Shown piece after piece: positions 1,703 to 61,555 of a stretch of 64,000 nt of DNA. Within the stretch, counting starts at the first letter, position 1; every line of letters starts with the position of its first letter. This stretch comes from Candidatus Borrarchaeum weybense. GTDB taxonomy: Archaea; Asgardarchaeota; Sifarchaeia; Borrarchaeales; Borrarchaeaceae. Made by a program: the position numbers and the translations under genes. The notes beneath the pieces were generated by a model. It had not been told where the DNA came from. It did not search any database and was given only the letters and a program-made list of their open reading frames with translations. The stretch lies in contig JAHQJS010000004.1 of NCBI GenBank assembly GCA_019057385.1, positions 946,727-1,010,726 on the forward strand, given 5' to 3'.

Positions 1703-3195
1703 GTGAGCAAGGATGACATGACCCTCTATTTGGATAATTTTGAACAGATACAGAAAGGAATTCAATGGCTAAGAGAGTGGGTAATCTTTGATGAGGAGAA
1801 GTTAAAGCGACGGTTAGATCGTTCAATCGAGGCTAAAGAAGAAGATAGCTACAGTATATCTCTCGAAGAACGAATTCACGATCTAGAAATAAAATTAGAT
1901 ATAAAATATACTTCAAGAGATACACTCCCGATTTATGTGTTATCACTCTTCAACGATCCGATTGTTAAGGAATTTAAGAATGCCTCGAACTCCCCCGAGT
2001 TCTGGGAAAGTGAGTTATGCGTGAGACCTGAAGGATATTTATTGCATGAAATGGGGCTCTCATCAAATGTTTTTTTTCAAGAGGATATGACTCTCTTTAA
2101 GAGAAGTCGAAGCGTTGAAGGACGTTTATCTAATGATGATTATCACATTCCATTGTTGAGATTATTAGTAGCCTTAGAGCCAGAAAATTCTATCACAATA
2201 AGTGCCTTAAAATACAGTTTAAGTAATAAACACCATTTACTAGACATTCTTTTTGGATGTAGTTGCATTTTCATTTTAGCATTGATGGAACTTGATTATT
2301 CTAACTACATTGACATAATTGAAGATGGTATCAAACACATTAAAGGTAAACAAAACCAAGATGGATCTTGGGGGAAACACAAGCACTATGACGATATGCA
2401 TTTTGCAATAAAAGCAATATCGAGAATTAATGGAATTTATAATGACTATATAAAGAGAAGTATTGAATTCATAAAAACATCTCAGAATCCTGATGGAAGT
2501 TGGGGTGAAAAAGTCTCAATATTTCCAGAGGAGCCTGAAAAAGAGCCCATTTATGTTCATTCCGTTGATAATACTTCATACGCACTATTAAGCCTACTAG
2601 CAGTTACTCCGCCCCTTTCAATAACTCAAGAGCAATATCAGTTAGAAAAGATCCAGTACGAACAAAAAATAAATCGGAAAAAGTCAGACTTCATTCATAC
2701 GTCACCTCTCTATGACACAAAAGATAAGATACTCCATGTTACGACGTTACATGATAAAATAAGTGAAGTATTGAATAACGCAAAACACACGCTTCTCATA
2801 ATGTCTCCTTACATCGACATGCACTATAAGGAAATTACCAATTTATCAGCACGTAATCCATTACTTGACATACGAATAATCACCCGACCAAAGGATGAGA
2901 TCGGGGCGAGCGAAAGAAGATATCAAAGCATGCCATCAATTTGTTGAAAAAAGCAACCAAAGGAAAGCTAAAACATTTGGATATTATTCATTCAAGACTC
3001 ATAATTGTTGATAATCAAGAAATAATACTTTCCTCCGCTGATTTAACACTGGAAGGATTAGCCGACGAATTTAATGCGGGAATTTATACGAGAGATCCTG
3101 AACTTGTTAAACAGTCCATAGACTATTTTGAGAACACTTGGAACTATGAAGATATTGTTGCTAAGATAAAAAATGAAAAACAGTTAGAATATTGA
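1703..3195 (+). pseudogene. Prenyltransferase/squalene-cyclase-like repeat protein with C-terminal PLD-like domain, frameshifted near 2900
   Basis: Repeats QNQDGSWG and QNPDGSWGE. The PLD half starts in 1703..2947 (IMSPYIDMHYKEI) and continues in another frame (HSRLIIVDNQEIILSSADLTLEGLADEFNAGIY) in 2941..3195. Confidence 0.65.
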
Positions 3196-14978: not shown

Positions 14979-15734
14979 ATGTTTTCTAATCATGATATCG
15001 AACTTATAGCAGAAATTCTCGTCAATTCAAAATACTTAGTTGCTTTTACGGGAGCAGGTGTTTCAACAGAATCTGGACTGCCTGATTATAGAGGTCCTGA
15101 GGGAGTTTGGACACTTCGAGATAAAGGACTCAAACCGAAATTACCAAGGAAACCAATCTCTGAAATCGAGCCAAATTCAGGTCACTATGCATTTGTTGAT
15201 TTATATGAACTGGGTATTTTAAAATATTTAATCTCGCAAAATGTTGACAATCTTCATTTAAAATCTGGAATTCCGCTTGAAATCATTGCTGAACTTCATG
15301 GCAACCATGCACTGACGAAATGTTTGGACTGTGATGCTCGTTTTACTAAACAGGAAATTGGTTGGGATGATCTGATCCATGGAAAGGGTTATCGGACTGA
15401 AAAGCCTAGATCAGATCAACCTAAATGCCCCCATTGCAAATCGCGAATAATTTCGTCAATTGTTAATTTTAATGATCCAATGCCTGAAAAGGAAATTATA
15501 GAATCTGATAACCAATCGAGAAAATGTGATGTAATGTTAGTAGTTGGTTCTTCGCTGAGCGTTTATCCTGCAGCCGAACTTCCGGTCATAGCTAAACGTT
15601 CAGGAGCGATACTTATCATAATTAATAAAGGTCCAACTCAACTTGATAATTTGGCTGATGTTCGTATTGAAGCAAAATCTGGCGAATTCTTGCCTAAAGT
15701 GGTAGAACAAATTAGGCAACTAAAAAACAGTTGA
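14979..15734 (+). CDS. Sir2-family NAD-dependent deacylase
   Basis: FTGAGVSTESGLPDYRG, SQNVDNLH, ELHGNHALTKCLDC, CPHC, VVGSSLSVYPA. Confidence 0.95.
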   Translation: MFSNHDIELIAEILVNSKYLVAFTGAGVSTESGLPDYRGPEGVWTLRDKGLKPKLPRKPISEIEPNSGHYAFVDLYELGILKYLISQNVDNLHLKSGIPLEIIAELHGNHALTKCLDCDARFTKQEIGWDDLIHGKGYRTEKPRSDQPKCPHCKSRIISSIVNFNDPMPEKEIIESDNQSRKCDVMLVVGSSLSVYPAAELPVIAKRSGAILIIINKGPTQLDNLADVRIEAKSGEFLPKVVEQIRQLKNS

Positions 15735-52951: not shown

Positions 52952-53171
52952 TTTGATTTCACCTCAATGAGTATATATCTAAAAAGTGATATCCTAAAGT
53001 GTATACCTAAAAGCTATTTAAGACTTAGCTTTTTTGCTGATAGACACTTACGTCACAGATCAGACAGGTCTTTACCTCACACAAATAGGGGTGCACGTCA
53101 TAAGTCTGAATCCTGCGAAATTGATGACTGGGTTTTGTTCAATATCGATTTTCTCACGTTTAAGCTCGATG

Positions 53172-53193
53172 CCTTGCGTGATAAGATGCAAGG
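53172..53193. promoter_or_regulatory. Hairpin CCTTGC...GCAAGG upstream of TnpB-related gene
   Basis: 6-bp stem, 10-nt loop; possible element left-end structure. Confidence 0.35.
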
Positions 53194-53257
53194 AATGCTG
53201 TACTAAATTTGTGGAGTTTAAAAATCAACTGTAATATAAGATAAATAGAAGGCGATC

Positions 53258-54784
53258 ATGATGATTCAGACCATCAAACTCCGAATGTATCCTGATGAGG
53301 CACAAGAATATCAACTCCATGAAATCTTTACCATCTATAACCGGGTGAAACGCATTGGTTACAACCTGCTGTTTCATAACGAGGACTACATGGTAGAGCG
53401 CTTCGATGAGGGTAAAACCATCCAACAGTGTTTGATGAGTCTGTGCCACAATAACCCTTATGTCAATACTATCTTGATTGACAACAAGGCGCAACTGGAA
53501 TCACAAAAGACGTGGCTGGAAAAACGACGCACACGCATGACACAGCAGCTACAAGTCATCATCAAGAAAATCAAAACAATAAAAGAGAAAGATACACATG
53601 ACAGACGGTTGAAGGGCTTATACGCCCGTAGATCCTCAATAATGGCTAAACTGCGCAATTTACACCTCGAACCTGTGGTATTTGGCACTAAGAAATTATT
53701 CAGAGACAGAATACGCGGCAACATAAGTAGGGAAGAGTTCAGGATACGACGGGATTCTTCTTTCAGTTGCATTGGAAAGCAACAGGGAAAAAACCTGAAC
53801 ATTAAAGTATTGCCCAGAAAAACCGTCAAGATACGCACCTTTTCCAAGCAAAAAGGATGCAAATGGCTGATCATTTCCCTTTCCGTAAACTCTGTGCAGG
53901 AAAAATGGTTTCAAGATATTTTTAATTCCGACAAATACACGGTGACCGTGAAACGGAAGTTTTTCAAGGGGACGGTGCGTTATTTTGTCCATGTTTCTTA
54001 TGAAATTCCAGAACCTGTACCACGTTGTGGCTACGAACATGGTGCCATCGGATTAGATTTCAACTATAATTTTGTTGCCCTGACCAATGTCGATCAACAT
54101 GGTACATTACTCTCTTATCATACCATTTCGTTTTGCAACCTCCACAGCTATCGAACAAATAAACGTAGCGATTACATCTCTTATAAGATGGATAAAGTCG
54201 TCAATTATTGCATCAATAAGGGCAAGGGCATCGTGGTCGAGGACTTACAATTCGGCCAAGAGTTTTACTATAATAAAAAACGCAACCGAAAATTCAGCAA
54301 TATGAAGACCACTGCCTTGCAGCTGTTAGAGAGAAAATGCAAAAAGCGAGGTGTGTCCTTTCGAAAGGTATTTCCTGGATATACCTCCATAATCGGGAGG
54401 TATAAGTATTCAGGATTACATAATTTGTCAACACATCACTTAGCAAGTTATGTAATAGCTCGAAGGGGTTTAGGTTTCAGGGAAGTCATTCCAGCCATCT
54501 ACGATTGGGTGTCCTCACAAGTCGGGGAGTTCATAGAACCCCGTTTGAAACAGGATAGTCCTTACCGTAGATGGTCGATGATCCATGACCTCTTCAAGCA
54601 CAGTGGGATAACTTCCTTCAAGGCTGCCGAAATACTTAAAAAAACAGTATTAATGAGGCATGTTTTGCACTCGGTGACGAGCGCACAGCCCGATAACCTT
54701 AAGGCTGGTTCTTCCTTCTTGAAAGCAGGGAGAATTGATGATTATTATAAAGTGTGGAATTTTATAACTAATCCCACATTATAA
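53258..54784 (+). CDS. TnpB-related protein lacking a zinc finger
   Basis: GAIGLDFNYNFVALTNVD (RuvC-I-like), KGIVVEDLQF (RuvC-II-like), STHHLASYVIARRGLGF in place of the usual RuvC-III; no CxxC pairs. Confidence 0.75.
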   Translation: MMIQTIKLRMYPDEAQEYQLHEIFTIYNRVKRIGYNLLFHNEDYMVERFDEGKTIQQCLMSLCHNNPYVNTILIDNKAQLESQKTWLEKRRTRMTQQLQVIIKKIKTIKEKDTHDRRLKGLYARRSSIMAKLRNLHLEPVVFGTKKLFRDRIRGNISREEFRIRRDSSFSCIGKQQGKNLNIKVLPRKTVKIRTFSKQKGCKWLIISLSVNSVQEKWFQDIFNSDKYTVTVKRKFFKGTVRYFVHVSYEIPEPVPRCGYEHGAIGLDFNYNFVALTNVDQHGTLLSYHTISFCNLHSYRTNKRSDYISYKMDKVVNYCINKGKGIVVEDLQFGQEFYYNKKRNRKFSNMKTTALQLLERKCKKRGVSFRKVFPGYTSIIGRYKYSGLHNLSTHHLASYVIARRGLGFREVIPAIYDWVSSQVGEFIEPRLKQDSPYRRWSMIHDLFKHSGITSFKAAEILKKTVLMRHVLHSVTSAQPDNLKAGSSFLKAGRIDDYYKVWNFITNPTL

Positions 54785-54918
54785 ATAATTGTAAGGTTTA
54801 AGAATATCCACATAATTTTTCTTGATTCCCAGTCCGTTTCGTAAGTTCAAAATTTGTCTTCCTCTTATAAGCTCTAAATTTAGAAAGTCAAATTAAGGAT
54901 TCAAAGGAGTTCCTAATT

Positions 54919-55326
54919 GTGAATAAACAAACTGATTTACAAAATAATAAGGAACTTTATGGCGTTTTCAATGAATTAAGGAACTATTTAGCCGGTATGG
55001 CTGCTGGTATGACTCGTGATGAAAGTTTAATACAAGAATTGATACCTCTTCTCTTTTGTAAAATTTATACTGAAAAAAATATAGATTTGAAAGATAAGTT
55101 TCGAGCAGAATCAAAAGAATCAGCCGGTGTTATAAAAAGGCGGATTTCAGCAATTTTCAAAATGGTTAAGAAAGAATTTGAGGATATTTTTGAAGAAGAG
55201 GAAAAAATTGATCTAAAGGCGGAATCAGTTAAGTTCATTGTCAGCAAGCTGCAAAATCATGATCTAACGACGGTGGATCAAGATGCAATCGGAAATCTGT
55301 TTGAATCCTTCCTTGGTCGATCGTAG
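54919..55326 (+). pseudogene. Truncated HsdM-like N-terminal fragment
   Basis: AGMAAGMTRDESLIQELIPLLFCKIYTEKN...VDQDAIGNLFESFLGRS aligns with VVGITRDEALIQEIMNLLFCKIYDELN...VDSNAIGDAFEVFIGKA in 58093..60666; stops at the insert. Confidence 0.75.
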
Positions 55327-55523
55327 CCAAAGATACCAATTTGCTCGTAGCTAAAACAACTAATACTGATACTAAAATGTTACTCAAGCAGATTTGATTG
55401 TTTTGTATAATTAGTAGATGGTATCTAGTGTACAACTGATTTTCTCATTATTTACAAACAACTAAAATCTCAAATAACGTCTATAAACCACGAAAATTTA
55501 CTATCATACTTTTACTGTGGTCT

Positions 55524-55566
55524 CTCTCTAGTAAAATATATTATATTTCATAATTTTTCTAGAGAG
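55524..55566. promoter_or_regulatory. 8-bp inverted repeat CTCTCTAG...CTAGAGAG flanking an AT-rich promoter-like tract
   Basis: Perfect IR just upstream of the RAMP-like gene. Confidence 0.45.
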
Positions 55567-55595
55567 CATGTATGTATTCTATCGAGGTTGTAAAC

Positions 55596-56408
55596 ATGAA
55601 ACAAACAAAAAAACAGATCGTGGTTCGTGCCTATACTCCAATAGCTAAACCTCATAATGTGTCTATTCAAAAAAATTCCACTATGCTTCTTCTAGGTGAA
55701 ATTTCTTATGAAAGTGGTTCGAAAGCATTCAATACAAAACTGTATTACATTAAAGGGGTACGCGGAATGTTGAGGCATGCCGCCATGTCTCTTGCTCAAG
55801 ATTGTGGTATAGAAGTCTGCCATTCCAGTGAAAAAACTGAGCTCAAAGATGGGACTCAACTCGTTCCTTCTGGTTTCCATCCTCTTGGCTCATGTGATCC
55901 TCCTTGTATTCTCCGAAGAATCTTTGGCACCTTCCGCGAAGAATCCTCAATCTCCGTCTTAGTTGATCCTATTGCTTCGATAAAGCATAAAGAATACACT
56001 ACTGAGTTACCTGCTCAAAAAGTCCATATCGCCACTGAAAATAGGATAGCCCTTACTTATGATAGAACGGCTATTCAAGATTTTCGTGAAAGCTATTTCA
56101 GCGGGTATTTTAACTTCGTAATCGACATCACAAATTTAACCGATGATGAGATCAAGTTCATCGTGGAATCGTTGCTCTACATCGAAACACTTGGCAGTGG
56201 CAAAAATGCTGGTTATGGATATATCAAGATTCTAGAGGTCGAAATCCAGAATGTACATGTTTTGCGAAACATCACGATGGATAACGGAGTATATAAGATC
56301 ATTGAAGAAATCGAAGTAAAACCGATACTACTTGAAAACATCGAAGAATGGAGAAACGCGTATATGAGAGAAAATCTGATAAAAATTGAACAACAACACT
56401 CCACTTGA
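55596..56408 (+). CDS. RAMP-superfamily (Cas7/Csm3/Csf2-like) protein
   Basis: IKGVRGMLRHAAM; CILRRIFGTFREESSISVLVDPIAS; Gly-rich loop ETLGSGKNAGYGYIKI; ATG 55596 preceded by GAGGT. Confidence 0.6.
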   Translation: MKQTKKQIVVRAYTPIAKPHNVSIQKNSTMLLLGEISYESGSKAFNTKLYYIKGVRGMLRHAAMSLAQDCGIEVCHSSEKTELKDGTQLVPSGFHPLGSCDPPCILRRIFGTFREESSISVLVDPIASIKHKEYTTELPAQKVHIATENRIALTYDRTAIQDFRESYFSGYFNFVIDITNLTDDEIKFIVESLLYIETLGSGKNAGYGYIKILEVEIQNVHVLRNITMDNGVYKIIEEIEVKPILLENIEEWRNAYMRENLIKIEQQHST

Positions 56409-56482
56409 TTAGTTGTGAAAGGGCGTGAGAAATAATGGAGATTTTCTCTTCTAAGACGCTCATCGCCCGCTTTTTCTCAGCT

Positions 56483-56610
56483 AAGACGGAATACTTCTTG
56501 TAATCTGCAAGAAGCACGTTCTTATGTGAGAGACAGTTATTATAGAGGTCCCAAACCTCGGTTGATGGGGAAAGAATGTCCGGCAGAGGGATGAATAAAA
56601 CGATAACTAC
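56483..56610 (+). ncRNA. Structured repeat RNA element, copy A
   Basis: Aligns with 57573-57698; hairpin CTTCTTG/CAAGAAG; CACGTTCTT; AGAGGTCCCAAACCTC...GGGGA possible pseudoknot. Confidence 0.65.
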
Positions 56611-56708
56611 TTTACCAAAAGGGTTACAAAAGCCGTTACTTTCCCATGGTCTTATATCTCCCGTTTAAATGACAAAAAATTTAAAACATCCTATAGTGGT
56701 GCTGAAAA

Positions 56709-57512
56709 ATGCCAAAAAGATGGTTTAAATTATCTGGTGTAACTAAAACTCCAGTGATCACGAAAAAAAGACATTTTTTTCATAAATTTGGGGTAATTAC
56801 CATTAATGGTAGTCCTAGAGTGTTCGGTAAACTTACGAAAGGTGAGAGACGCGCTCCTATGACCTTTAGGGCATGGCATGGAACAGTAGAGTTTATTATT
56901 CCTCACTCAAAACTCGAACCAGCGCTCGCTATTGAAAGTATCGGGAGATATACCCATGAAGGGATGGGGCAAATACTGTGGACAAGTGTAAAACAACTCC
57001 CCAAAAGACCTCTCTATACTCCAAAAAAAATTAGGATTCGTAAAATGCTCCCAAAACTTTCAGATACATGGGAAAAACTAATGATCGCCATGTTACTACA
57101 TGATTTCGTGAATACTGAAAAACATTCCAGCAAAATTTACTCTGAGGTTACTATCGTTGATGACGACGTATATAATCTAGCGAAAAATCATCATAATTAC
57201 GAGATGGATGAAAGGGAATTGCCCCTCCTCGCTACCCTCCAACATTATGACCAAGTTTCTTCCTCAATTTCTCGAAAGTTTAGGTGGTCTACCTCCTCAC
57301 GTTATCGTGCAGATATTCAAGAGAAAATAGATTTTGATACACTAAAAAGAGAGATAGAATTGAGAAAACATTCTCTTTATGCTCTTTATAGCTTCATCTA
57401 TAAGTCTCAAGTACTTAATGAGATCAATGAGGCAATAGAATTTGGTTTCTCTTCTTTAAAAAACCATCTTCTTCTGATGGTCAATCTCTTTCTTGATGAC
57501 CTTTATGGATGA
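56709..57512 (+). CDS. Cas6-like (RAMP half) protein with C-terminal HD-like domain
   Basis: AWHGTVEFIIPHSKLEPALAIESIGRYTHEGMGQILW resembles a Cas6 C-terminal half with Gly-rich loop; LMIAMLLHDFVNTEKHSSKI ... NHHNY ... LQHYDQVSSSI resembles a Cas10/Cas3-type HD domain. Confidence 0.5.
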   Translation: MPKRWFKLSGVTKTPVITKKRHFFHKFGVITINGSPRVFGKLTKGERRAPMTFRAWHGTVEFIIPHSKLEPALAIESIGRYTHEGMGQILWTSVKQLPKRPLYTPKKIRIRKMLPKLSDTWEKLMIAMLLHDFVNTEKHSSKIYSEVTIVDDDVYNLAKNHHNYEMDERELPLLATLQHYDQVSSSISRKFRWSTSSRYRADIQEKIDFDTLKREIELRKHSLYALYSFIYKSQVLNEINEAIEFGFSSLKNHLLLMVNLFLDDLYG

Positions 57513-57572
57513 GTTTTTATGTCACAAGTTATGGTGTTGCAATCCCTCTTTACAGATAAATATACAGGATGC

Positions 57573-57698
57573 AAGACGGACTGTTCATCGCATATCGCGA
57601 TGAACACGTTCTTGTACATGAGACTGAACCCGAGAGGTCCCACGCCTCAGATGACGGGAATGGATGACAGGCCAAAGGACGAGAAAAGTGATAAATAC
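57573..57698 (+). ncRNA. Structured repeat RNA element, copy B
   Basis: Aligns with 56483-56610; hairpin TGTTCATCGC/GCGATGAACA at the same position as copy A but different sequence; GAGGTCCCACGCCTC...GGGA possible pseudoknot. Confidence 0.65.
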
Positions 57699-57800
57699 GG
57701 ACACTTTTTCACGCCAAGAAACGTTGTCAGATTCGCTATTACCATTAATGATCCTAGGAATGGTAATGGCATCCTCCCTATTTTTTTATTTTTTCAATAA
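57695..57800 (+). pseudogene. Second fragment of the broken HsdM-like gene
   Basis: KYGHFFTPRNVVRFAITINDPR matches GQFFTPRNVVRMAVEILDPQ in 58093..60666 and continues from where 54919..55326 stops. Confidence 0.7.
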
Positions 57801-58092
57801 TAGTTTTACATGAACCTCTCTTTTAAAAAAATGCCATTCATCCACATTATCATAGAAACTTCTAGCGAGATTACTAAGACTTGCCCAGAGCATCTATCTA
57901 TAACACACGAAAGATCAAACTTACTATAACAAAATAAACGTCAGAGGGGTTCTGGTAAAATGCTTCATAATTTTGAATAGTTTTGTCGGTTCCCCATACA
58001 ATTTTATAGATGTTGTTTGCAAAAAAGAACATCAAATTAGATTTCCTAGTTTTTTAACTTAAGTCAATGATTGCTCAGGTTGGTTAAGAATT

Positions 58093-60666
58093 ATGCCGAC
58101 ACGAACGAAATCAGTTGAAAAGGTTTCCTTTGCTGAGGAACGCGTCAAAGGACAGATGAGACTTATTGATTTTATTTCTGGAAGTTTAGTTGAAGCCACA
58201 CCTGAAGAGGTAGAGGCTGTTCAGGTCTTTTCTCGCAGATTGGTCGAAGAGTTTGGATATGATAAAAATCAAATCCAAACAAGACCTCAATTTAAAATCC
58301 GGGGCGCACCGTCAGGTAAACCAAAATATCCTGTTGACATAGCCGTCTTTAATGACGAAAAAAAAACCCATGGCAACTTGTTTATGATTGTCGAATGCAA
58401 ACGAAAGACTCGTCGAGATGGAGAAAAGCAACTGAAAATATATTTGGGACTATCAAGTGCTCAGATAGGAGTTTGGTTCAATGGTAGTGAGCACCTCTAC
58501 CTACAGAAGATTCTCGACAAAGAGGGAAATGTAACCTACAATTTAATTCCCACGATTCCCAAAAAAGGACAAAGAATTGAAGATATTGGCAAATACAAGC
58601 GAAAAAACCTGACGAAACCGAGTAATATAATCTCTTTGTTCAAAGATATTAAGAATCACTTATACGGAAACGTCGTAGGAATTACTCGTGATGAAGCTTT
58701 AATACAAGAAATAATGAATCTACTATTCTGCAAAATATACGATGAACTGAATACTGCTCCGGAAGATGATGTTGCTTTCAGAGTAGGAATCAATGAAGAC
58801 TCGAATCAGGTCAAGGAGAGAATCTCTGAGCTATTCAAGTTTGTGAAAATAGCATACGAGGATATCTTCGAAGAGCGAGACGAATTACGTCTTGATCCTG
58901 ACTCACTTTGTTATGTTGTTGGCGAATTGCAACCTTATAGTCTGTCAGAAGTAGATAGTAACGCAATAGGCGATGCGTTCGAGGTATTCATTGGAAAGGC
59001 GCTCAAGGGTGCCGAGGGGCAGTTTTTTACACCTCGAAATGTGGTTCGAATGGCTGTTGAGATACTTGACCCACAACCCTACGAACATATCGTTGATCCT
59101 GCATGCGGTAGCGGAGGTTTCTTAATATTTGCAATGGAACATGTGTGGCAAAAACTTAAGATTGAAGCTAAAAGAAAGAATTGGTCAACCGAAATGCTAC
59201 AGAAAAGAAAGACAGAAATTGCGAGCAAATTTTTTGGTGGAATTGACAAGGACATGTTCCTAGCAAAAGTCACAAAGGCTTACATGGCACTAATAGGTGA
59301 CGGTAGAGGCGGAATATTCTGTGAAAACTCTTTAGAATTCCCAGAAAAATGGCAGGCGACTACCCAACAAAGAATAATGCTTGGTAAATTTGATGTTCTA
59401 TTTACTAATCCTCCCTTCGGATCAAAGATCACTATCAAGAAATCATTGTATTCTCAGTTCGAGTTAAGCTTTAAATGGAATAAAAACAAAAAAACTGGTA
59501 AGTGGAAGAAGGGTAATAAACAGGCAGACAAAAGACCACCGCAAGTTCTGTTTATTGAGCGATGTTTACAATTTCTTGCTCCAAACGGAAGAATGGCAAT
59601 CGTTTTACCTGATGGTTTATTAAGCAATCCCAGCGATGGTTATATTACACAGTATATCAAGGATAATGCTGAGATCATTGGACTCGTCGATTTACCAATG
59701 AGTACTTTCTTACCTAATACACCCACGAAGACACATATTTTGTTCTTAAGAAAGAAAAAACCTGAGGGGAACTATCCAATCTTTATGGCCTACGCGAAAA
59801 CTTGTGGACATGATAAGAGAGGGAAGATCATCTATAAAGTCGGTGAAGCTGGTCAAAATGTTGTTGATGATGACATTTATGAAATATCAAAGCATTTTGC
59901 TCGCAGATATGAAAGAGTTAATAAATATGATAGGAAGGGATTTCTTGTTTATCTTGACGATTTAAAGTCAGGTATACTGTTACCGAAATATTATAATCCA
60001 GAATTGAATGAGAGATTAGAAGCGTATCGACAGACTGGTGAATATGACGTTTATTCTATAGGTGATTTAGTTAAACTGGGAAAGTTGTGGATAAGGAGAG
60101 GCCATGAAGTCGGATCTGTGAATTATGGAACTGGCGATATCCCGTTTATTCGGACTTCGGAAATATCAAATTGGGAACTAACTGCCGATCCTACTCATTG
60201 TTTAGCCGAGGATATATACGAGGAATACAAGGATCGCCAGAAACTAAAAAAAGATGATATCTTAATTATAAATGATGGTACGTACCTAATGGGTCGAACC
60301 GCGATACTTTCTGAAAATGATACAAAAATTGTTGTTCAAAGTCACATCAGAATTCTTACAGTCTTAGACCGAGAATTTATTCACCCTTATCTTTTGTTGT
60401 TCCTCTTAGGATTGAGAATTGTTCAAGAACAGATTGAGTCGAAATCCTTTAGACAAGCTACTATCTCTACTCTAGGAAACAGACTTCTTGAAATCAGAAT
60501 CCCACTACCAAAAGATGAAAAAGTAAGAAAAGAAATTGTTGAGCAAGTTTCTAACATAGTTGAGAAGCGCTCGATGCTAAGACATAAGGCGATGAATATT
60601 GAATTCAATGGAACATCAGAGAGTGTTATGGGTATAAAAAACAAGGCAACCTTGGGAAATCTATAG
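58093..60666 (+). CDS. Single-chain restriction-modification protein: HSDR_N-like nuclease + N6-adenine methylase + HsdS-like target recognition domain
   Basis: PVDIAVF...FMIVECKRKTRRDGEKQLKIY (PD-D/ExK-like); VDPACGSGGFLIFA and FTNPPFGS (methylase); GDIPFIRTSEISNWEL...QATISTLGNRLLEIRIPLP (S domain). Confidence 0.85.
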   Translation: MPTRTKSVEKVSFAEERVKGQMRLIDFISGSLVEATPEEVEAVQVFSRRLVEEFGYDKNQIQTRPQFKIRGAPSGKPKYPVDIAVFNDEKKTHGNLFMIVECKRKTRRDGEKQLKIYLGLSSAQIGVWFNGSEHLYLQKILDKEGNVTYNLIPTIPKKGQRIEDIGKYKRKNLTKPSNIISLFKDIKNHLYGNVVGITRDEALIQEIMNLLFCKIYDELNTAPEDDVAFRVGINEDSNQVKERISELFKFVKIAYEDIFEERDELRLDPDSLCYVVGELQPYSLSEVDSNAIGDAFEVFIGKALKGAEGQFFTPRNVVRMAVEILDPQPYEHIVDPACGSGGFLIFAMEHVWQKLKIEAKRKNWSTEMLQKRKTEIASKFFGGIDKDMFLAKVTKAYMALIGDGRGGIFCENSLEFPEKWQATTQQRIMLGKFDVLFTNPPFGSKITIKKSLYSQFELSFKWNKNKKTGKWKKGNKQADKRPPQVLFIERCLQFLAPNGRMAIVLPDGLLSNPSDGYITQYIKDNAEIIGLVDLPMSTFLPNTPTKTHILFLRKKKPEGNYPIFMAYAKTCGHDKRGKIIYKVGEAGQNVVDDDIYEISKHFARRYERVNKYDRKGFLVYLDDLKSGILLPKYYNPELNERLEAYRQTGEYDVYSIGDLVKLGKLWIRRGHEVGSVNYGTGDIPFIRTSEISNWELTADPTHCLAEDIYEEYKDRQKLKKDDILIINDGTYLMGRTAILSENDTKIVVQSHIRILTVLDREFIHPYLLLFLLGLRIVQEQIESKSFRQATISTLGNRLLEIRIPLPKDEKVRKEIVEQVSNIVEKRSMLRHKAMNIEFNGTSESVMGIKNKATLGNL

Positions 60667-60709
60667 TACCTTAGTTGATTTTTGGTCTCTTATATATCTA
60701 AGAATATAA

Positions 60710-61555
60710 GTTAAAGGCTATAAAATCGATAAGAATGGAGATAAACAACTCGATGATGATCTTTTGCAAATAGGTAAGCGATATCATGATCTACGTCAAA
60801 ATTTTAATGAAAAATATGACCATCTAGGTTTTTTCATTGACGTACAGAATTTAAAAAAAGGAATTCTCATGCCAAAATATTACAACCCAGAAATCAAGAA
60901 TGAATTAAGGAGGCTTAAAGAAACAGGCCATTATGATTTGGTAAGTATTGGAGAGTTGGAGGGACAAAACACACTCCAGATAAGTTGTGGTCACGAGATA
61001 GGTTCTATAAATTATGGCACAGGAGATATTCCTTTCATTCGCACCTCTGAAATAAGTAACTGGGAGATTGCAGCAGATCCGACTCATTGTGTTTCAGAAG
61101 ATATCTATGAGATGTACAGAACAAAGCAGGATCTACAGAAAGACGATATTCTTATTGTAAATGATGGGACCTACTTAGTTGGTCGAACTGCAATTCTATC
61201 AGAATTTGATGTGAAAATTGTTATTCAAAGTCATTTTAGAAAAATTCGTGTTCTTGATTGGAGTGACTTGACGCCGTATCTTTTGCTTTATCTGTTAGGT
61301 TTGAGAATAGTTCAGAATCAAATAGAAGCGAAAACATTTCGCCAGGCTACTATCTCGACTCTTGGAAATAGACTGCGAGAAATCATTCTGCCTATTCCAA
61401 AGAATTCCAAACTTAAAGCAGAAATTTCTGAAAGTGTAGAACTCATCGTTGGGAAACGTGCAAAATTACGGAATCAGGCTATGCACATGCAATTTGATGA
61501 TAAAAAAGAGAATGTGATGGGACTGCAAAATAAAGCAGCCCGTGGTAATATCTAG
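60710..61555 (+). pseudogene. C-terminal (S-domain) paralogous fragment of an M-S protein; may be expressed as a half-S subunit from a TTG at 60764
   Basis: GHEIGSINYGTGDIPFIRTSEISNWEI...FRQATISTLGNRLREIILPIP closely parallels the 58093..60666 C-terminus; frame is open upstream to 60710 without an ATG. Confidence 0.65.

Follow-up and report, generated by a model that had tools for sequence, protein, structure and literature searches.

A mobile Cas-derived element of Asgard archaea with a private structured RNA and a probable self-regulating, RNA-guided mode of homing

What could a pair of Cas-like genes do where there is no CRISPR array, and why is each followed by the same structured RNA? 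These questions are raised by a locus in a 64,000-nucleotide (nt) stretch of the genome of Candidatus Borrarchaeum weybense (the window), in which a first-pass annotation had seen a minimal two-gene system, a Cas-derived ribonucleoprotein using a dedicated non-CRISPR RNA. Comparison of sequences demonstrated that the locus is a mobile insertion, present in multiple copies and restricted to Asgard archaea, which combines a structured RNA, guide/target pairing with the period of Cas7 and, in complete copies, a Cas1-type domain. We consider it quite probable that the whole is an RNA-guided, self-regulating homing element made from class 1 Cas parts, in which each new guide would be the flank of the insertion.

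An insertion in hsdM and its relatives

The insertion spans about 55323-57692 (2.37 kb) and lies inside an hsdM gene, which encodes an N6 methylase. The 5' fragment of hsdM (54919-55322, plus strand), ending in ...FESFLGR(S), forms the left host flank, and a decaying 3' fragment (57693-57800, plus strand) forms the right one. Uninterrupted hsdM crosses the junction in two congeneric genomes, G003 (86% identity) and G001 (83%), which thus provide empty sites; the identity of the 5' fragment to the uninterrupted gene stops at ...GGTCGATC. On the right, the insertion ends together with the second RNA, at its 3' terminus. On the left, the edge near 55323 is approximate, no sharp boundary having emerged from alignment of the regions upstream of the large gene of complete copies, and the hsdM site has no clear target duplication. 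Recent activity is evident at one site, a gene end where genome G000 has an inserted RNA-only unit of about 150 nt (L049, oriented positions about 15400-15547) that G003 lacks (L154); the two genomes are approximately 93% identical there. With this unit the stop codon of the antisense gene changes from TAA to a TGA supplied by the RNA tail.

Two genes and two RNAs alternate on the plus strand of the insertion. The first gene (55596-56408, 270 aa) encodes a Csm3/Cas7-like RAMP with homologues in every well-preserved copy, and its earlier identification as a RAMP is borne out by Pfam RAMPs (E=4.8e-7, above the cut-off) and PADLOC Csm3 profiles (5e-8). The second (56709-57512, 267 aa) was thought to pair a Cas6-like half with an HD-like module. 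The HD-like module held up: the window protein itself scores under the Pfam cut-off (HD, 0.022), but 6 of 16 homologues match Pfam HD (best 0.0018), three match a Cas10 profile through this half (9e-5), and the candidate metal ligands LHD, H, HH and D are invariant across all aligned copies. The label Cas6-like was dropped as unproved, since the best profiles for the N-terminal half, which is a RAMP, are Csm3/Cmr1 (1e-4 to 6e-4 in homologues), and the confident AlphaFold model (predicted local distance difference test, pLDDT, 86) gave only weak and mixed Foldseek matches, the best solved structures being type IV, Csm, Cmr3 and Cas6 chains (E 0.03 or worse). The profiles support a Csm3/Cmr1-like RAMP joined to a Cas10-type HD domain. 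Sequence searches against solved structures returned nothing useful for the RAMP, the RAMP-HD protein or the Cas1-like domain described below.

The pair does not stand alone. A database scan of 85,462 species placed the RAMP-HD family in Asgard archaea only (Borrarchaeum, Heimdall, Hod and others; 34 loci), in 23 of the 232 genomes of the phylum, many with several as well as broken copies. The source genome (4.18 Mb) holds approximately 10 RAMP copies, 12 RAMP-HD matches including fragments and approximately 26 RNA matches, at unrelated loci. The RAMP and RAMP-HD pair is the constant core of the family, and a third gene of about 1330 codons lies upstream in five copies, and with its frame broken in a sixth, giving complete copies the order helicase-Cas1, RAMP, RNA, RAMP-HD, RNA. 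No relatives with either protein or the alignment were found in IMG/VR that would indicate a phage or viral origin.

The approximately 1330-aa protein combines a Ski2/Hel308-like superfamily 2 helicase, a CxxC..C..C cluster and a zinc ribbon with a C-terminal domain in which E, H and DxxE are conserved across the two divergent clades (Borrarchaeum and Heimdall). Since the AlphaFold model of this domain is poor, we used only the Foldseek ranking and the motif: each of the 41 best matches is a Cas1 or casposase chain (4n06, 6opm; E about 1e-6). Fold ranking on a weak model together with the motif thus places a Cas1-type domain in complete copies. The open reading frames of complete copies encode only this protein, the RAMP and the RAMP-HD protein; among them there is no Cas10 palm or polymerase domain (the Cas10 profile matches only the HD-bearing protein), no family B DNA polymerase, no TnsB, TnsC or TniQ and no IscB/TnpB-type RuvC/HNH nuclease.

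The third gene is lacking from the window copy, as from L029, L050 and L051. In the window copy the left part of the insertion (55323-55595) contains neither this gene nor the self-targeted RAMP promoter of complete copies; the 1330-aa protein gave no tblastn match anywhere in the window, and the promoter target had no match in the window copy. The supposed minimal two-gene system is therefore a Cas-derived pair, as proposed, yet one within a mobile element that is truncated in this copy and in its full form includes helicase-Cas1. The window copy appears to be non-autonomous, a remnant that would depend on Cas1 supplied in trans.

Scaffold RNA, guides and targets

Both genes are directly followed by the RNA, as had been noted. 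The internal copy (56480-56604, plus strand) scores 70.9 bits (cmsearch R1, E=7e-17) and the terminal copy (57570-57692, plus strand; 3' tail GAGAAAAGTGAT) 129.5 bits (E=2e-33). In the consensus fold of the RNA, derived from 18 copies of about 124 nt, a 10-bp hairpin is accompanied by a stem with long-range pairing (CGTTCTT/GGGACG) and a second hairpin, GAGGT, while the 3' tail, A-AAA-GTSAT, is left unpaired. These copies show 31 double-sided changes of base pairs, against 8.7 +/- 2.5 in shuffles, and the covariation is abolished by sliding the pairing by one to three columns. Many of the pairs are G-U, which favours a structure that acts as RNA over one that acts as single-stranded DNA. The covariance model detects the RNA in all Borrarchaeum copies, sometimes in tandem (four in L078; two, 36 nt apart, in L101), and in Heimdall copies the end of the RAMP-HD gene is overlapped by related RNAs. 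Rfam gave no match in the window. The reported absence of a CRISPR array was confirmed for 53000-58100 of the window and found also in the complete copy L047, the scaffold RNA being the only notable repeat in both. By sequence, the RNA is a conserved structured scaffold plus a 3' guide.

The evidence for a guide is clearest after the internal RNA. With position 1 set at the first base after GTSAT, the following 42-48 nt or so match sequence immediately preceding the RAMP start of the same element, with mismatches at 6, 12, 18, 24, 30, 36 and 42. Across nine self-guides (positions 1-40), 40 of the 54 positions that are multiples of six are mismatched; this is 74%, close to the 75% expected without constraint, compared with 2-10% in the other five classes (Fisher p=1.7e-30). 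When one guide per family was used, the figure was still 19 of 26 mismatches at multiples of six (p=3e-10). At the other 34 positions a guide has 1-3 mismatches to the promoter of its own family and 12-17 to those of other families, so that guide and target have changed together across four families. Duplication of the promoter was rejected as the origin of the match because it would not yield a 6-nt period. Type I complexes, too, flip out every sixth base. Such flipping is a behaviour of Cas7-backbone complexes (PMC9945777), and the 6-nt mismatch period is the sequence signature of a Cas7 filament.

The self-guide has the sense orientation of the RAMP gene and spans the TATA region of its promoter, and could therefore pair with DNA only. 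More generally, guides lie in both orientations to genes, which together with the sense self-guides argues for DNA rather than mRNA as the target. Repression of the RAMP promoter by its own element, as in CreR, would be the natural reading. Internal guides with other targets were also found. The second guide of the L078 array (L078:9548) matches the archaeal 16S rRNA gene of a related genome over 43 of 49 nt, with mismatches at 2, 3, 6, 28, 30 and 42, and an extra guide in L045 (L045:2719; RNA at 2719-2842, minus strand) matches (87% over 31 nt) only DNA that lies about 50 nt outside its own element, past the right end. A target was sought for L078:9281 and none was found.

The last RNA of the element passes directly into host DNA, usually at the start or stop of a housekeeping gene. 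Flank genes, the names of which were mostly assigned by eye from sequence, include EF-2 (at least three species), ESCRT-III (four loci), RpoE', S19e, a zinc-ribbon protein and GIY-YIG, and further HerA-like, aldolase-like, tRNA-synthetase-like and TFS-like genes; EF-2, ESCRT-III and RpoE' each serve as flank gene in several species. In the window the predicted guide (57693-57740, plus strand) is hsdM coding DNA for the conserved stretch FFTPRNVV, and its bases 6, 12, 18 and so on coincide with third codon positions. This phase recurs: wobble bases occupy guide positions divisible by three at 17 of 20 independent sites (p=2.8e-6), so that the bases predicted to be flipped out would sit on wobble positions. 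Guides of CRISPR-associated transposons (CAST) likewise aim at conserved genes and tolerate wobble variation (PMC11406308).

These matches with a 6-nt period, and the retention of the RNA beside the genes across Asgard archaea, bear out the proposal of a Cas-derived ribonucleoprotein with a dedicated non-CRISPR RNA. Nothing that the first-pass annotation had named as fatal to it (proteins with neither RAMP nor HD folds, an RNA not kept elsewhere, or debris of a type III locus) was found.

Several neighbouring features were recorded. In the window, a diverged TnpB-family gene (53258-54784) lies immediately left of the interrupted hsdM; the scaffold was considered as the RNA of this TnpB and rejected, the gene being outside the insertion with no scaffold copy adjoining it. 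Right of the insertion (58093-61555) are a second, intact hsdM-like gene (857 aa) and a tandem specificity-like open reading frame. Mutually similar leucine-rich-repeat or TPR-like proteins, either cargo or a common hot spot, lie left of most complete copies (L045, L046, L047 and L049, left of the large gene; L108). A hairpin repeat (ATTCTACCTGAAAATAGG...TTTCAGGTAGAAT) is found beside a complete copy (L047 8518-8565) and beside a 65-nt relic of a terminal RNA in G003 (L155 1400-1447).

Around most Heimdall copies (L079, L080, L081, L082, L083, L084, L087, L094, L099 and L107), LAGLIDADG-like proteins of about 530 aa (Pfam LAGLIDADG_3, 1.9e-8 for L080), sometimes two in tandem, are encoded upstream of the RAMP gene on the opposite strand and diverge from it. 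An operon near L080, L082, L091 and L094 (partly L079) encodes a 672-aa Cas1-like protein with Cys cluster, zinc ribbon and E-H-DxxE, and also a PD-(D/E)XK/Cas4-like protein (Pfam PDDEXK_1, 1.2e-9) and two small proteins, one of them winged helix-turn-helix-like. The Hodarchaeal/B3_Heim copies L088, L090 and L095 share another neighbourhood, with a protein of about 1000-1440 aa on the opposite strand and two of about 240 aa before the RAMP; no Cas1 was seen at these three copies, and their RNA is seemingly a more diverged version.

A homing model and its rivals

From these data we infer that the internal guide serves repression, that the terminal guide targets DNA, that HD cuts and that Cas1 integrates, in the following order. 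The scaffold with its downstream sequence would be excised from a transcript, and Csm3/Cas7-like RAMP subunits would polymerise along the 3' guide, each spanning 6 nt with the sixth base flipped out, the scaffold tail (A-AAA-GTSAT) serving as the 5' handle. With the internal guide, the complex would occupy the RAMP promoter at its TATA box and repress it. With the terminal guide, which equals the host DNA beside the insertion, it would locate the same conserved gene in an uninfected chromosome, where the HD domain and/or helicase-Cas1 would cut the DNA and place the element, by insertion or by copying, exactly at the edge of the target on the handle side. Each new copy would acquire its flank as guide, and its own site would be protected because the handle-side flank has been replaced.

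Several observations weigh against this model. Terminal inverted repeats and target duplications were not found, and the left end is approximate. The Cas1-like region has a low-confidence AlphaFold model (pLDDT 47), and sequence profiles fail to detect Cas1 in the 1330-aa protein; several copies, that of the window among them, lack Cas1, and the neighbourhoods of Heimdall copies differ. The window internal guide (56605-56650, plus strand) occupies the position that in complete copies is directed at the RAMP promoter; no target for it was found among the element copies retrieved, and the handle before it is damaged as well, with AAAACGAT in place of AAARGTSAT. Three sites (L029, L086 and the third RNA of L049) violate the phase rule. 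The scaffold end, GGTGAT, resembles a Shine-Dalgarno sequence 6 nt ahead of the start codon at most sense sites, a role from which the wobble phase at start-codon sites could stem, and at L050, L077 and L104 the stop codon of the antisense gene comes from the scaffold end. Transcription, processing and binding of the scaffold RNA are predictions from sequence.

The last points lead to the strongest rival, which we nevertheless judge unlikely: that guides regulate only the element, that insertion is the work of Cas1 or of homing nucleases with the terminal guide idle, and that gene-edge sites reflect purifying selection through a Shine-Dalgarno role or stop-codon rescue. The self-guides are the best-proved part of the system, LAGLIDADG genes adjoin Heimdall copies, and a scaffold end with Shine-Dalgarno likeness at 6-nt spacing, or one that supplies a stop, could explain gene-edge sites by selection alone. 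Selection of this kind does not account for the hsdM insertion, which is deep within the gene yet in phase, or for antisense sites with their own stop at 6-8, which are also in phase; neither confounder applies to the hsdM site or to three of the antisense sites (L047, L041 and L115). In addition, the 16S-matching internal guide implies that guides to conserved host genes exist, and the same host gene is used in several species.

A reading at the level of DNA, in which the approximately 124-nt repeats are transposon ends, or units like miniature inverted-repeat transposable elements, that are bound by Cas1, with a structure that matters as single-stranded DNA and a flank that is no guide, is distinctly improbable. 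The repeat is indeed the right end of the copies examined and RNA-only units do insert alone; this reading and the homing model are compatible. What the DNA-level reading leaves unexplained is the promoter-matching sequence with a 6-nt period after the internal copy and the match to 16S, and the many G-U pairs favour RNA.

Still less probable is a non-programmable ARAMP island for defence or regulation, in which RAMP and HD act unguided on foreign nucleic acid and the hairpins of the repeats have no connection with them. Type III defence has RAMP and HD components too, and the published account places ARAMP/HRAMP near defence with mechanism unknown (PMC8730458). Such an island would predict neither matches with a 6-nt period that co-vary by family nor an RNA conserved beside the genes, nor insertions in host genes with empty sites; moreover, those guides for which targets were found match host genes and the element's own promoter. 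Debris of an ordinary type III CRISPR-Cas locus, to which the Csm3-like and Cas10-HD-like signals might point, is excluded in practice by about 10 copies of the same layout in one genome and a conserved private RNA, with no array and no Cas10 polymerase domain.

Returning to the homing model, we lean, with less assurance than for its general form, towards a separate kind of RNA-guided mobile element: a casposase-like Cas1 with its helicase, steered by a Csm3-type RAMP/HD complex on a private structured RNA. Its flank-acquired guide would be wobble-phased in the most conserved genes for homing across species, its internal guide would silence its own promoter, and internal arrays of the RNA, as in L078, would keep guides to earlier targets such as the 16S rRNA gene. 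The model is directly testable because guide, numbering and targets are predicted base by base. If it is correct, class 1 Cas proteins gave rise to RNA-guided transposition with neither Tn7 nor CRISPR repeats, the 'enigmatic' Asgard RAMP/Cas1 systems gain the guide and the function that they lacked, and a single element, from the closest archaeal relatives of eukaryotes, links casposons, OMEGA elements and CRISPR effectors. A Cas1 integrase that can be programmed would then be of interest to genome engineers.

Relation to known systems

The element shares with type III systems a backbone RAMP of the Csm3/Cmr4 type (by Csm3 profiles) and the 6-nt segmentation of the guide, and differs from them in having neither a Cas10 polymerase nor an array. 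CAST elements (types I-F3 and I-B) are alike in carrying a class 1 RNA-guided effector in a transposon with guides toward conserved chromosomal genes, for our element by sequence only. They differ in having Tn7 transposase, TniQ and CRISPR repeats, where the element has Cas1 and one long structured scaffold per guide. Also unlike CAST, the flank itself would be the guide, since insertion occurs at the edge of the target. In the CreR/CreA system a crRNA-like RNA with a partial promoter match recruits a class 1 complex for repression (PMC12737573), whereas the putative regulator described here is inside mobile DNA, on a 124-nt private scaffold without CRISPR repeats.

Cas1 fusions with zinc-binding and helix-turn-helix domains are known from casposons (PMC9939771), and a Cas1-family integrase in a mobile element is the point of likeness, here in complete copies only and as judged from a low-confidence model and a motif. 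Complete three-gene copies differ from casposons in the absence of PolB and in the presence of an RNA-guided effector; with the right end of the element defined and the left end approximate, neither terminal inverted repeats nor a duplicated target came to light. OMEGA systems (IscB, TnpB) of IS200/IS605 elements have a structured RNA at the right end and use the target DNA next to it as guide. The right-end RNA of our element similarly runs into flanking DNA as a predicted guide, which anatomy and wobble phase fit; the effector differs, being a multi-subunit RAMP/HD complex with a 6-nt period and not a single RuvC/HNH protein, and there is an extra autoregulatory internal guide.

The closest resemblance in proteins is to ARAMP systems, reportedly described by Makarova et al. 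in 2020. Both have Asgard hosts, diverged Cas5/Cas7-type RAMPs and a distinct Cas1, and both are array-free. One account presents ARAMP as RAMPs of Asgard archaea that are distant relatives of HRAMP and in most cases come with a distinct Cas1, and terms their mechanism 'enigmatic'; as described there they have no guide RNA, self-targeting or flank-derived guides (PMC8730458). Comparison by description suggests that the proteins of the element are probably those of the published ARAMP. The proteins have thus likely been named already, while the working whole is likely to be categorically new.
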